55,384 bases of DNA, taken from NCBI GenBank assembly GCA_026421185.1, contig JAPKCH010000008.1, positions 1 through 55,384 on the forward strand. Reading direction: 5' to 3'. This stretch comes from Dehalococcoidia bacterium (GTDB lineage Bacteria > Chloroflexota > Dehalococcoidia > Lucifugimonadales > Lucifugimonadaceae). Below, in pieces: positions 3,516 to 8,208 of the stretch (position 1 is its first letter; each line of letters begins with the position of its first letter). The notes beneath the pieces were generated by a model, which did not search any database, was not told the origin of the DNA, and was given only the letters and a program-made list of their open reading frames with translations. The position numbers and the translations under genes were made by a program.

Positions 3516-3545
3516 TTGACTCAACACCCCTTTAAGGTCTAATCT
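3516..3545 (+). promoter_or_regulatory. Sigma-70-type promoter of the trpS T-box leader
   Basis: TTGACT (3516-3521) and TAATCT (3540-3545) are separated by 18 bases and lie about 35 bases upstream of T-box stem I, as expected for the transcription start of this leader. The rest of 3326-3515, between the divergent lipoprotein gene and this promoter, holds nothing else I can recognise. Confidence 0.65.
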
Positions 3546-3575
3546 TGGAGATAGTTCGAATTTCATATTTGCGTT

Positions 3576-3876
3576 GATCGGGACTAGTAAGTTTCGTTAC
3601 GGATCAAAGAGAGTCGGGGTCAGCTGGAAGCCCGATATCACGACCGGAACCGAATGGACCCGTGAGCTTCGAAGCAAAAGTATTGTTGCAATACGAGTAG
3701 CCACCGACGGAGTGGGCACCGTTATCAGAGCCCAGGGCCTACGATCTTAGATAGCCTTGATCGTGTGTCCGACAGAGATACTGCTTAGCTAAACTTGATG
3801 CAGTAATAAGGGTGGCACCGCGGGATACATACCTCGCCCCTTGAAAATTATTTCATTTGGGAGTGAGGTTTTTTTA
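3576..3876 (+). promoter_or_regulatory. T-box riboswitch, tRNA-Trp specific, upstream of trpS
   Basis: All parts of a T-box leader can be seen. Stem I closes with GGG (3580-3582) against CCC (3659-3661). Its internal loop has the S-turn pair AGTA (3586-3589) and GAA (3652-3654). The specifier codon TGG follows at 3655-3657 with the usual purine after it (A3658), so the leader reads Trp. The T-box sequence AAGGGTGGCACCGCGG lies at 3808-3823, and its bulge TGGC would pair with a tRNA acceptor end GCCA, as expected for tRNA-Trp with discriminator G. An intrinsic terminator follows at 3831-3875. In this class uncharged tRNA stabilises the antiterminator, so trpS should be switched on when charged tRNA-Trp is scarce. 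The trpS start lies 70 bases downstream. Confidence 0.95.
3831..3875 (+). terminator. Intrinsic terminator of the T-box leader
   Basis: ACCTCGCCCC (3831-3840) pairs with GGGAGTGAGGT (3859-3869), with one G-U pair and one mismatch, followed by seven T. It overlaps the 3' side of the T-box region, as expected for a mutually exclusive terminator/antiterminator pair. Confidence 0.85.
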
Positions 3877-3945: not shown

Positions 3946-4965
3946 ATGGCAGTGCCTACTAAAAAGCGAATTCTTACTGGTATCCGACCCACCGGAGCAC
4001 TCCATCTGGGTCACTACGTTGGCGCGCTTCACAACTGGATTGAACTGCAGGATCAGTATGATTGTTACTTCCTGATCGCCGACTATCAAGCACTTGGCGA
4101 CCACTTACACGACATCGATCTCATCAGAGATTCGGTGCTGCAGGTCACGCTCGACTGGTTGTCAGTCGGACTCGATCCAGACAATTCCTCGTTCGTTGTG
4201 CAGAGCTACGTGCCTGAGTTCGCTGAACTCACGATGTTGCTCAGCTTCATCACGCCGCTCGGCATGCTCGAACGCAATCCGACGTTAAAGAGTGAGATTG
4301 ACGATCTCGCGGTCGAACGACGCACCGTTGGTTTCTACAACTACCCAATGAGTCAGGTCGCCGACATTCTGTTGCCGCAGGCTCACTTGGTACCAGTTGG
4401 AGACGATCAGCTTCCTCATATCGAAATGACACGCGAAGTAGCTCGCAAGTTCAACCGAATGTTCAAGCCGGTATTCCCAGAAGCCGAATCACTCGTCGGT
4501 AAAGTCCCTCGACTCTCAGGAACCGATGGACAAGGCAAGATGAGTAAGTCTAAGGGCAACGTAATAATGCTGTCTGACGATGCGAAGACGGTCACGAAGA
4601 AAGTTCGTGGAATGTTCACCGACCCGAACCGAATTCGAGCCGACACTCCCGGAAAGGTCGAGGGTAATCCAGTATTCCAATACCACGATGCCTTTAACCC
4701 GAACACGGAACAGGTCGACGAGTTCAAATCTCGCTACCGCGAGGGAACGATTGGTGACGTTGAAGTAAAGATGGCTCTAGCAGAAGCGCTCAACGAATTC
4801 TTAGATCCTATTCGTGAGAAGCGTGCGTACTACGAAGCGAACATTAACCTCGTTGAAGACGCGATCATGAACGGTGTTGGGCGTATGCGAAAAGTCGCTG
4901 CTGAAACGATGGAGCAGGTGCGAGACGCCATGCGAATTTCGAGCTACACAAAAAATTGGAAGTAG
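3946..4965 (+). CDS. trpS: Tryptophanyl-tRNA synthetase
   Basis: 339 residues, the normal length for a bacterial class Ic synthetase charging tRNA-Trp. The HIGH signature is HLGH at residues 20-23 inside [18 protein letters not shown], and the KMSKS loop is intact at residues 198-202. The Rossmann core motifs LIADYQAL and PVGDDQ, used for tryptophan and ATP binding, are present. The ATG at 3946 is the first start after the T-box terminator; no strong ribosome binding site is visible in front of it. The gene leads a tryptophan block and is governed by its own T-box, with trpE starting 149 bases after its stop behind a second leader. Confidence 0.97.
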
Positions 4966-5013
4966 CGAGCTACGTTTTCTTAGAACCATCCAGTTCACTT
5001 CACAACTAATTCC

Positions 5014-5070
5014 ATGACCAATCGAATCAAAAACTTAATAGCCACCGGCACTTCCTATTGGCGAAGTTGA
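5014..5070 (+). CDS. Candidate 18-residue trp leader peptide
   Basis: An ATG at 5014 opens an 18-codon frame reading MTNRIKNLIATGTSYWRS and ending at a TGA (5068-5070). It holds a Tyr-Trp pair (Trp codon 5059-5061) just before the stop, and the stop lies inside the 5' arm of a perfect hairpin. It is located 45 bases upstream of the trpE start. This arrangement resembles attenuator leader peptides. However, only one Trp codon is present, no clear ribosome binding site precedes it, and the hairpin has no U-tract, so the peptide is a candidate rather than a demonstrated leader. Confidence 0.45.
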   Translation: MTNRIKNLIATGTSYWRS

Positions 5071-5092
5071 ATCTAGAACAAAATTCAACTTC
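5063..5092 (+). promoter_or_regulatory. Perfect 10-bp hairpin overlapping the leader ORF stop, upstream of trpE
   Basis: GAAGTTGAAT (5063-5072) is the exact reverse complement of ATTCAACTTC (5083-5092), with a 10-base loop. No T-run follows, so it is not a classic terminator. It sits 9 bases before the trpE ribosome binding site, and a ribosome at the leader stop codon would melt it. This is compatible with control of transcription or translation by leader translation. Confidence 0.6.
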
Positions 5093-5114
5093 AATCACTC
5101 AGGAAATTTACGTC

Positions 5115-6668
5115 ATGCCCAATTACACACCAGCTCTTCCAGAATTTAAAACCCTCGCCGATGGACACAATCTTATTCCGGTTTATCGCGAGATAAGCGC
5201 AGATCTTGAAACACCTGTTTCTGCCTACTTAAAGACAGCTACTGGCAGGCATTCGTTCCTCTTCGAGTCGGTCGAAGGCGGAGAGAACCTCGCTCGTTAC
5301 AGCATTCTCGGCACAGAGCCTTCAGAGGTTCTAACAACAGGTGCTGGAACTGAATTGGGCGAAGTAGACCCACTCGAATTACTTCGAGATCGTATGTCGA
5401 AAGTTAGCTACGCAACAGTAGAAGGACTTCCGAAGTTCCATGGTGGAGCTGTTGGCTACCTCGCTTACGACACGATTCGATACTTTGAACCATCGGTACC
5501 GCAGATCTCTGATGAAAAATCAGGACTCGACGTTCCCGAATCTGTGTTCATCCTCACCGATACGATCATGATTTTCGATCACGTTCGTCACACCATTTTC
5601 GTAGTTGCTCACGCAGCAATAAACAACGGCGACACCGAAGCGGCATACGAAAGAGCCACAGCAAAAATCGAAGAGGTGATCGCACGACTCGACAAGCCGG
5701 TTCCCGCAAGTGGCGCACGTCGTAATTTCCTCCCGCCTTCAGGCTTCACATCACGTGACCCTAATCTCGATTACAGCTCGGTTGGCCACCCCGACCAGTC
5801 ACCAATCGAAGGCGGCGAACTCACCGGACAGCCGTACATTCCGAACATGACACGTGAGTACTACGGCGAAGCAATCGCCAAGTGCAAACAAGCTATCCAA
5901 GATGGCGAAGTCATTCAGGTCGTGTTATCGCAGCGATTGTCACGACGAACACCCGTCAAACCGTTCGATATGTATCGATCACTTCGAGCTATCAACCCTT
6001 CGCCATACATGTTCTTCTTGGAACTCGACGGATTCCAAATAGTCGGTGCTTCTCCTGAGCTACTAACGCAGGTGATCGACGGCAAAATGGCCGTTCACCC
6101 AATCGCCGGTACTCGACCACGAGGAATAAACCCGGAACATGATGACGAACTCGAAAACGAACTCATCAACGATGAAAAAGAAGTCGCCGAGCACGTAATG
6201 CTTCTCGACCTTGGACGCAACGACGTCGGCAGAGTTTCCGATCCGGGCAGTGTCGTAGTTGAGCAAAGTTTCGAGATCGAAAAGTACTCGCACGTGATGC
6301 ACATCGTGTCGCACGTGACTGGTGATCTCTCCAAGAAATACGACATGTTCGATGCCATGAAAGCTGCGTTTCCGGCTGGAACTGTTTCAGGTGCTGCAAA
6401 AGTACGTGCGATGCAGTTGATTGCCGAACTTGAGCCTGAAAAACGTGGCCCTTATTCAGGAGCCGTTGGCTACTTCAGTTTCACTGGAAACATGGACACC
6501 GCAATTTCACTCCGAACGATGATTATGAAAGACGGCATTGCGTATTTGCAAGCCGGCGGCGGAATTGTTTCCGATAGCGATACACAAACGGAGTACGAAG
6601 AGACGCTTCACAAGATGGGGGCCTTGATGCGAGCTATCGATCACGCCGAGGAGTCGTCGGGTGTCTAG
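5115..6668 (+). CDS. trpE: Anthranilate synthase component I
   Basis: 517 residues from the ATG at 5115, which has AGGAAA eight bases upstream. An in-frame TTG at 5058 would add 19 residues that overlap the leader hairpin and is less likely. The enzyme makes anthranilate from chorismate with ammonia delivered by TrpG. The chorismate-binding domain shows PIAGT (residues 329-333), DLGRNDVGRV and FPAGTVSGAAK. PIAGT rather than PIKGT is the form usual in anthranilate synthase, as opposed to aminodeoxychorismate synthase. The N-terminal domain keeps a FES segment followed by RYS, matching the LLES-type region that binds feedback tryptophan. The gene overlaps the next one by 8 bases. Confidence 0.93.
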   Translation: MPNYTPALPEFKTLADGHNLIPVYREISADLETPVSAYLKTATGRHSFLFESVEGGENLARYSILGTEPSEVLTTGAGTELGEVDPLELLRDRMSKVSYATVEGLPKFHGGAVGYLAYDTIRYFEPSVPQISDEKSGLDVPESVFILTDTIMIFDHVRHTIFVVAHAAINNGDTEAAYERATAKIEEVIARLDKPVPASGARRNFLPPSGFTSRDPNLDYSSVGHPDQSPIEGGELTGQPYIPNMTREYYGEAIAKCKQAIQDGEVIQVVLSQRLSRRTPVKPFDMYRSLRAINPSPYMFFLELDGFQIVGASPELLTQVIDGKMAVHPIAGTRPRGINPEHDDELENELINDEKEVAEHVMLLDLGRNDVGRVSDPGSVVVEQSFEIEKYSHVMHIVSHVTGDLSKKYDMFDAMKAAFPAGTVSGAAKVRAMQLIAELEPEKRGPYSGAVGYFSFTGNMDTAISLRTMIMKDGIAYLQAGGGIVSDSDTQTEYEETLHKMGALMRAIDHAEESSGV

Positions 6669-8208
6669 CCTGATATTCAAAGGCACAAAACGCGAATTCG
6701 AGTACGCATCCGTTGAATACGATGTCGTACCGATTCACGCCGTCATCGAAGGGGTCAAAGTTCGCCCTATCGAAGCTATAAGATCACTTCGAAATCAAGG
6801 TGAACCAGCGTTTATATTCGAATCGGAATCACCCGAAGCTGGAGCTTCGAGATACGCGTACGTGTGCCCATCAGTTGAGAGCGTAGTACGCACTGGTGAG
6901 ACCGAAACGGCTGGAAACATCAACCCAATTTCAGCGTTACGATCTCAACTTGAGTCACGATCGGTTGCACCCGTTGCTGAGCTACCATCACTAATCACAG
7001 GTGCTTTCGGATTCATGGCATACGAGGCAATCAAACATTTCGAGCCAACGGTTGGCGAATTACCCTCCGATCCAACCGGATCGCCTGTAGCTGCATTCGT
7101 AACCCCGCACGAACTACTTGTATTCGATCGCGCCCTCGATCAACTCCACATCATCGTATTTACACGCAACTCTAACGATTTTGAATCGGCCTCAAGCCGA
7201 ATTTTTCAAATCTGTGAGATTCTAGAATCCACTTCGATCGAACAGCAGGCGATCATCTCCACTGAGCTCGAAGAACTAGTTGATGAAGTCGCGATTTCCA
7301 TAACCGCAAATAACAAAACATTCGCAGACATGGCCCGCAAAGCTCTCAAAGCGATCATCGAAGGTGAGCTGATTCAAGTCGTGCTTGGACAACGGGTTGA
7401 AACTAAAACGACCGCTAACCCAATCGACATATACGAACAGCTATCAGCGATCAATTCGTCGCCGTACATGTACATGCTCGACCTCGGTGACATGCAGTTA
7501 ATCGGGGCATCACCGGAATTACTACTTCGATCCACCAATGGCAAGGCTTCCGTGCATCCCATTGCAGGCACTCGACCACGAGGCGTAACAGCGGAAGAAG
7601 ATCTTCAATACGAAGCCGATCTACTTTCTAACGAAAAAGAATCGGCTGAACACGTGATGCTGGTAGACCTCGCTCGAAACGATCTGGGTCGGGTCAGCAA
7701 ACCGGGCACAGTTCAAGTGAAATCATTGAAGCACGTCGAACGCTACTCGCACGTTATGCACTTAGTATCAAGAGTCGAAGGACGGCTCGCCACCGGTAAA
7801 GATGGCATCGATGCATTCGAATCTGGATTTCCAATCGGAACCCTTTCTGGCGCACCAAAAATACGTTCTATCCAACTGATCGCCGAACTCGAGCCTGAGG
7901 GTCGAGGACCCTACTGCGGTGGCATCGGCTGGTTTGGACAGAACGGCGATATCGACACCGGCACGATCATTCGGTCAATAGTTCTTCGTGATGGCACAGC
8001 ACACGTTCAAGGCGGGGCAGGAATCGTATTCGACTCCGATCCAGAAGCCGAAAATCTCGAATCTATCCAGAAAGCAAAAGCACCGCTACTAGCGATCGCT
8101 CGAGCTGAAGCAATTTCCGAATCAATTCAAAACCAGCATTTGCGAAGCAACGAAAAATCTTCATCCGGCTTACTTCAACCTGCGACAATGCAGCTAATCA
8201 GCGACTAA
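6661..8208 (+). CDS. Second anthranilate synthase component I-like protein (TrpE paralog)
   Basis: 515 residues from a GTG at 6661, overlapping the trpE stop by 8 bases, so translation is probably coupled. The C-terminal half is a complete chorismate-binding domain with PIAGT (residues 300-304), [10 protein letters not shown] and [11 protein letters not shown]. The N-terminal domain keeps a FES segment near residue 58. A tail of about 30 residues extends beyond the usual end. The PIAGT motif favours anthranilate synthase activity. Because a single glutamine amidotransferase gene follows 4 bases later, this copy could instead be a PabB that shares it. It is clearly homologous to trpE but diverged, so the duplication is not recent. 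Confidence 0.85.

Follow-up and report, generated by a model that had tools for sequence, protein, structure and literature searches.

Tryptophan-responsive attenuation of translation, brought about by a ribosome stalling at the UGG codon of a short leader ORF, is the best explanation for the region in front of trpE, and we consider it quite probable. The leader ORF and a hairpin lie in the 150-nt gap that separates trpS from trpE in the window, by which we mean the whole 55,384-nucleotide stretch of DNA analyzed here; the gene order in it is T-box, trpS, trpE, a second trpE-like gene, trpG, trpD, trpC, and trpF (Table 1). The UGG codon sits inside the arm predicted to pair with the trpE Shine-Dalgarno (SD) sequence, a placement that would let a stalled ribosome disrupt the sequestering stem.

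Table 1. Positions of the trpS-trpE features in the window.
Feature	Position	Strand	Basis
Promoter-like site TTGACT-N18-TAATCT, upstream of the T-box	3516..3545	+	only sigma70-like site found for the transcript
Trp T-box leader, specifier UGG, before trpS	3565..3844	+	RF00230, 111.8 bits, E 6e-24
trpS, tryptophanyl-tRNA synthetase	3946..4965	+	TIGR00233, 280 bits, over cut-off
Leader ORF MTNRIKNLIATGTSYWRS*, 18 codons	5014..5070	+	sequence; ATG-to-UGG spacing a multiple of 3 in 15/15 genomes
Anti-SD segment UUCCUAUUGG, including the putative regulatory Trp codon UGG 5059-5061	5052..5061	+	fold, alignment; UUCCUGG in relatives
Inner hairpin, 5' arm GAAGTTGAAT, holding the leader stop TGA 5068-5070	5063..5072	+	sequence, fold, pair counts
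Inner hairpin, 3' arm ATTCAACTTC	5083..5092	+	sequence, fold, pair counts
trpE SD region CAGGAAA	5100..5106	+	AGGAA 5101-5105 pairs with 5052-5056 in the predicted fold
trpE, anthranilate synthase component I, proposed target of translational control	5115..6668	+	TIGR00564, 539 bits vs cut-off 517.7

A leader ORF with a conserved Trp codon between trpS and trpE

The Trp T-box that the earlier note had placed upstream of trpS is confirmed by an RF00230 match well over the gathering threshold of 93 bits, with the specifier UGG read in GAAUGGACCC / GAAUGGACC and an intrinsic terminator behind it (U-run at about 3870-3876); the same element is found in relatives. The promoter-like site ahead of the T-box scores 8/12, below the cut-off of the promoter tool, and a TTGACT-N18-TAGTCT-like pair lies just upstream of the T-box in most members of the genus whose assembly covers the region. 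Within the gap itself, none of the 15 genomes has a sigma70-like site that scores above shuffles, so an internal promoter was rejected, and a search of 4940-5180 for a further T-box returned no plausible bacterial Rfam family even at E 10. As no promoter-like site other than the one ahead of the T-box was found for the transcript, the leader is probably part of the trpS mRNA that the T-box controls, with T-box and leader most likely acting in series on one continuous RNA.

The elements that the earlier note had read in the gap, namely an 18-codon ORF with a Trp codon near its TGA, an exact 10-bp hairpin (with a 10-nt loop) carrying that TGA in its 5' arm, and no U-tract behind the hairpin, are all present in the window. 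The ORF runs from the ATG at 5014 to the TGA, two codons separate its UGG from the stop, and the hairpin ends 8-9 nt before the SD AGGAA, close to the 9 bases originally given. An SD-like 4-mer precedes merely 9 of 32 genes (long ORFs) in the window, which makes the SD before trpE stand out and suggests that SD-independent initiation is common; the leader ORF itself has no SD. Downstream, a tandem TrpE-like gene (6661-8208, + strand) overlaps the end of trpE and scores 438 bits on trpE_most, under the 517.7 cut-off, and a second trpE-like match follows trpE in most genomes of the genus.

The genus set (g1, Ca. Lucifugimonas, to which Candidatus Lucifugimonas marina JH1073 of SAR202, Chloroflexota, belongs) comprised 19 genomes, the window included, and the trpS-trpE gap was readable in 18. 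An in-frame ATG leader ORF with one conserved UGG, falling at the 13th to 23rd codon, was present in 15 of these 18. The distance from ATG to UGG ranges from 36 to 66 nt and is a multiple of three in every one of the 15 despite many indels. In shuffled gaps, the UGG is preceded by an in-frame ORF that starts with ATG and has 12 codons or more in only about 7% of cases. In the 15 leaders the Trp is almost always followed by Arg-Ser, the exception being L062, where the stop comes directly after the Trp; behind W-R-S stand a stop, RN, CN, HN, FN, or RNYHQ, and the remaining peptide is not conserved. Of the two features whose conservation the earlier note proposed to check, the Trp codon has been kept but the position of the stop has not: it drifts from a TGA directly after W-R-S to a TAA or TAG two or more codons later.

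Relatives that lack the ORF or the stem, which the earlier note had named as evidence against it, do occur: L057, L059, and L063 are missing both, yet they make up one derived subclade in the trpS/trpE tree, and outside these three the frame is never broken. They carry a stronger SD (CGAGGU) before trpE, and the T-box was confirmed in two of them.

A predicted fold over the trpE Shine-Dalgarno sequence

The minimum-energy fold of positions 5047-5110 has a free energy of -14.5 kcal/mol (z -3.2), which none of 200 shuffles equaled. In this fold UUCCU (5052-5056) pairs with the SD AGGAA (5101-5105) and the Trp codon UGG pairs with UCA (5095-5097), forming an outer stem around the hairpin, and the internal part of the structure is a plain hairpin in the minimum-energy folds. 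As the outer helix includes the SD, the structure does not end before the trpE ribosome binding site; the complete predicted fold masks the trpE start, with the 10-bp hairpin as the inner part of a longer structure. The proposal that this hairpin is itself the output element has to be given up: the regulated element would be the outer stem, where the trpE SD is covered by the segment that holds the Trp codon, and this places control on translation initiation. In relatives the Trp-codon segment UUCCUGG pairs with the SD segment CCAGGAA, and the UGG finds its partner in a CCA or UCA adjoining the SD. The outer stem of the window is weaker than that of its relatives, with a TAT codon splitting UUCCU from UGG.

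Comparative evidence came from a MAFFT alignment of the 15 leader-bearing genomes. With the alignment as its sole input, RNAalifold predicts only the outer stem, that is, the anti-SD:SD helix UUCCUGG:CCAGGAA, which pairs in 94% of cells compared with 27-62% when it is slid by one to three columns. One of its pairs is seen as C-G, U-A, U-G, and A-U, with U-A in L054 and L056 (not sister genomes in the tree, whose support is weak at that point) and A-U in L058. Across the whole 19-pair structure there are 15 double-changed cells against 6.8 in shuffles and a covariation score of 0.182 against 0.116, values that none of 500 shuffles reached, so that the covariation suggested as a check by the earlier note is found as compensatory change over the entire structure. 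For the outer stem alone the covariation signal is modest, being equaled or exceeded in 26 of 500 shuffles, because most of the stem is invariant, and an invariant Trp codon beside an invariant SD would look conserved anyway.

A covariance model built from this structure gave one strong match per genome, always at trpE, in its 15 training genomes; no second strong match was found elsewhere in the genomes, and among 76 genomes of the family there was no other match below E 0.01. The same element at trpB was considered and rejected, as trpB has its own conserved promoter block, which illustrates how promoters of this genus are built, and has no T-box match and no leader. About 120-170 nt upstream of trpB (L107-L125) stands the strikingly conserved block CTGCTATCCTAGCTTGNGATC, which is kept in every fully read genome of the genus and is longer than a -10 box needs.

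Where the conserved structure ends bears on how the leader would act. A Trp codon near a leader stop in front of trpE is the classical arrangement of transcription attenuation in E. coli, where translation of the leader decides between an antiterminator and a terminator, and 6 of the 15 genomes do have weak stem-plus-U-run motifs just behind the stop codon of trpS. These motifs lie upstream of the leader, amount to -0.4 to -3.5 kcal/mol, and are missing from the other nine genomes; downstream of the leader the window has neither a terminator-like site nor a U-tract, and the conserved structure ends on the SD rather than on a U-run. A terminator in the gap was accordingly rejected, and we regard transcription attenuation as very unlikely.

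Slightly less credible still is translational coupling on its own, with ribosomes from trpS or from the leader reinitiating at trpE and no role for either the Trp codon or the hairpin. Reinitiation after leader genes a short distance away is a proposed way of raising translation, with peaks at 10-16 nt (PMC4833913). The leader does end near trpE, but across the genus its stop and the trpE ATG downstream are 32-57 nt apart, well beyond those peaks, and coupling leaves the single invariant UGG, the W-R-S ending, and the compensatory pairing with the SD unexplained.

Attenuation by stalling at the UGG, the reading we prefer, was modeled by masking the footprint of a ribosome at the Trp codon. Since the automatic choice of SD was crude (ACCAGG was picked in several loci), later tests used the whole -20..-4 or -18..+3 region. 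In the model, the footprint makes the trpE start more than 2 kcal/mol cheaper to open at 17 of 31 loci, and the predicted relief in the window is 2.7 kcal/mol; L047 (2.8 kcal/mol) and L060 (0.8 kcal/mol) are predicted to be weakly masked, and no relief is predicted for L062. A ribosome at the stop codon is predicted to open the SD in genus g1 about as well as one at the UGG, because the stop in this genus lies only a few codons past the UGG, so the switch would have to depend on dwell time.

Leaders and masking arms in other genera

In 11 genera of the family trpS adjoins trpE. A T-box precedes trpS in g1, g2, g3, g4, g8, g10, g11, and g12, and cmscan at E 0.01 found none at trpS in g6, g7, and g9, although the g7 locus L100 does carry the string GAATGGACC. 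Trp leaders are confined to the genera with the T-box: seven of these eight have one, g11 being the exception, and none of the other three does. Beyond g1, Trp-rich leader ORFs stand before trpE in six genera: they end in ...WVWRS* in g10, RWRSW* in g8, and RWRSLN* or RWRGLD* in g4, and they contain RWRSGIAWRW... or RLWRRHWRS* in g12, FLWRRRS in g2, and HWYWPWAR* or ...SWSWPG... in g3.

In several of these genera the SD is masked by a different arm from that in g1. In g12, CCUCUUGA, located 10-15 nt upstream of the first UGG, pairs with UCAAGAGG, and owing to this upstream position a marked relief is predicted for L065, L066, and L067 only from a stall at the first Trp codon. In g4 the masking arm, GCCUCAAC/GCCUCGAC, follows shortly after the UGG; its partner is GUUGAGGC/GUCGAGG, and the two have changed in a compensatory way (p about 0.005 in a comparison with shuffles). 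In L091 of g3 UCGAAUCCU directly before the UGG pairs with AGGAUUCGA at the trpE start. All three arms are within footprint reach of a ribosome stalled at the Trp codon. For g10, g8, and g2, a duplex test for direct complementarity to the SD near the UGG was not significant; in g10, RNAalifold pairs UGGGUCU with GGA and with CCCAU at the start codon, which we treat as a lead only.

An Arg, often Arg-Ser, is kept after the Trp across genera (L047-L093), with different masking arms and with the Arg codons CGA, CGG, CGC, and CGT. Pairing alone does not explain this, and some constraint on codons or residues beyond pairing is indicated. The E. coli TrpL peptide ends in WWRTS, which we do not use as evidence. 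The recurrence of W-R-S (or W-R) with differing RNA geometries and Arg codons would fit a TnaC-like sensor, in which the nascent ...W-R-S arrests the ribosome on free tryptophan; the rest of the peptide, however, is not conserved, the residues after W-R-S vary, and L062 stops right after the Trp. Moreover, arrest on free tryptophan would induce rather than repress a biosynthetic gene unless it were wired differently, and we hold such a sensor to be highly improbable. Just as improbable is that nothing is regulated and that a conserved SD and a chance-conserved short ORF persist in recently diverged genomes: the genomes are related, conservation of the UGG and the SD is not proof by itself, and one subclade does without the leader, but the frame kept across indels, the whole-structure covariation, and the W-leaders with other masking arms in other genera all argue against it.

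Outside the family, about 24 trpE upstream regions from other families of the order contained no W-R-S leader, apart from one similar case in L129. There, about 15-75 nt ahead of trpE, a short ORF (...RCLFWRTL...) holds CCUCUUCUGGCG, whose complement AGAAGAGG stands at the trpE SD; codon and anti-SD are arranged as they are within the family.

Proposed mechanism and known systems

We propose that the RNA of the gap would fold so that the stretch holding the Trp codon pairs with the trpE SD atop the inner hairpin, leaving little translation of trpE. Under a shortage of charged tRNA-Trp, a ribosome on the leader would wait at the UGG, and its footprint would cover the anti-SD arm together with the 5' arm of the inner hairpin, so that the SD is freed and trpE can be translated. 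With ample charged tRNA-Trp, the ribosome would pass the UGG, terminate a few codons on, and leave, and the mask would re-form. Before any of this, uncharged tRNA-Trp would have let the transcript past the T-box terminator and TrpS would have been made; trpE would then be translated only if decoding of the UGG were still slow after the T-box step.

The suggestion of the earlier note that a leader-peptide control distinct from the trpS T-box is present here is supported. Its further suggestion, that one locus senses both tRNA charging and leader translation, holds in part: the locus may read charging twice, probably on one transcript, but these are not two signals, since the T-box and the leader both read charged versus uncharged tRNA-Trp by two routes, namely T-box binding and codon stalling. 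We lean, if only slightly, toward a two-step tRNA-Trp gate on a single transcript, in which the T-box would decide whether the trpS-trpE mRNA is made and the anti-SD Trp codon whether trpE is translated, so that the cell makes more TrpS first and Trp only if charging is still short; across genera the masking arm would have been rebuilt at differing distances while the Trp(-Arg-Ser) leader stayed.

The rtpLP leader peptide of Bacillus subtilis has three Trp codons, and its terminating ribosome occludes the rtpA SD. Compared with rtpLP, the leader described here has one Trp codon and its SD is masked by an RNA stem; in the window its stop lies about 30 nt before the trpE SD, too far for a terminating ribosome to occlude it in that way. 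The B. subtilis at operon (rtpA/yczA), as outlined in PMC11255114, has a Trp T-box followed by rtpLP (Chen & Yanofsky 2003, 2004; cited in PMC11255114). On that outline the two systems are alike in that T-box control of transcription is followed by tRNA-Trp-dependent leader stalling that controls translation of the next gene; they differ in the target, which is the anti-TRAP protein there and a biosynthetic operon here, and in that here trpS stands between the T-box and the leader.

The LEU element upstream of leuA in Actinobacteria, in which the regulatory codons pair with the structural gene's SD (Seliverstov et al. 2005, PMC1262725), resembles our structure in that pairing and in having further helices inside. 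It differs in its run of Leu codons, internal pseudoknot, and leuA target, with no upstream T-box described (PMC1262725), whereas here we find Trp, trpE, a simple stem-loop in the minimum-energy fold, and a T-box in series. The cysteine-responsive uORF attenuators of mycobacteria (Canestrari et al. 2020, as described in PMC13236596) share amino-acid-responsive attenuation of translation and uORFs without an SD; in that description they have runs of Cys codons on leaderless transcripts, unlike the single Trp codon inside an operon seen here. The trp attenuators of E. coli and Actinobacteria likewise have a Trp-containing leader before trpE but use double or triple UGG and U-tract terminators (PMC1262725 for Corynebacterium and Streptomyces), and here there is no terminator. 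Within the same class, Dehalococcoidia, Dehalococcoides also places Trp biosynthesis under T-box control (PMC2494555), with the T-box on trpE itself; here it is on trpS, and a leader is added before trpE.

Each ingredient thus has a precedent, in the rtpA leader, the actinobacterial LEU element, and the mycobacterial Cys uORFs, while the combination of a T-box with an SD-masking Trp leader on trpE in Chloroflexota was not found in the literature searched. If the proposal is true, T-box and leader-peptide control would be stacked on a Trp biosynthetic operon outside the Firmicutes, in SAR202, a widespread and abundant ocean group with very few cultured members, and a single regulatory codon would plainly act as sensor and SD mask at once. 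Across the family the leader persists as its pairing partner moves; this natural series, together with the genera that have the T-box only or neither, should make the evolution of stacked tRNA-charging control testable by comparison.
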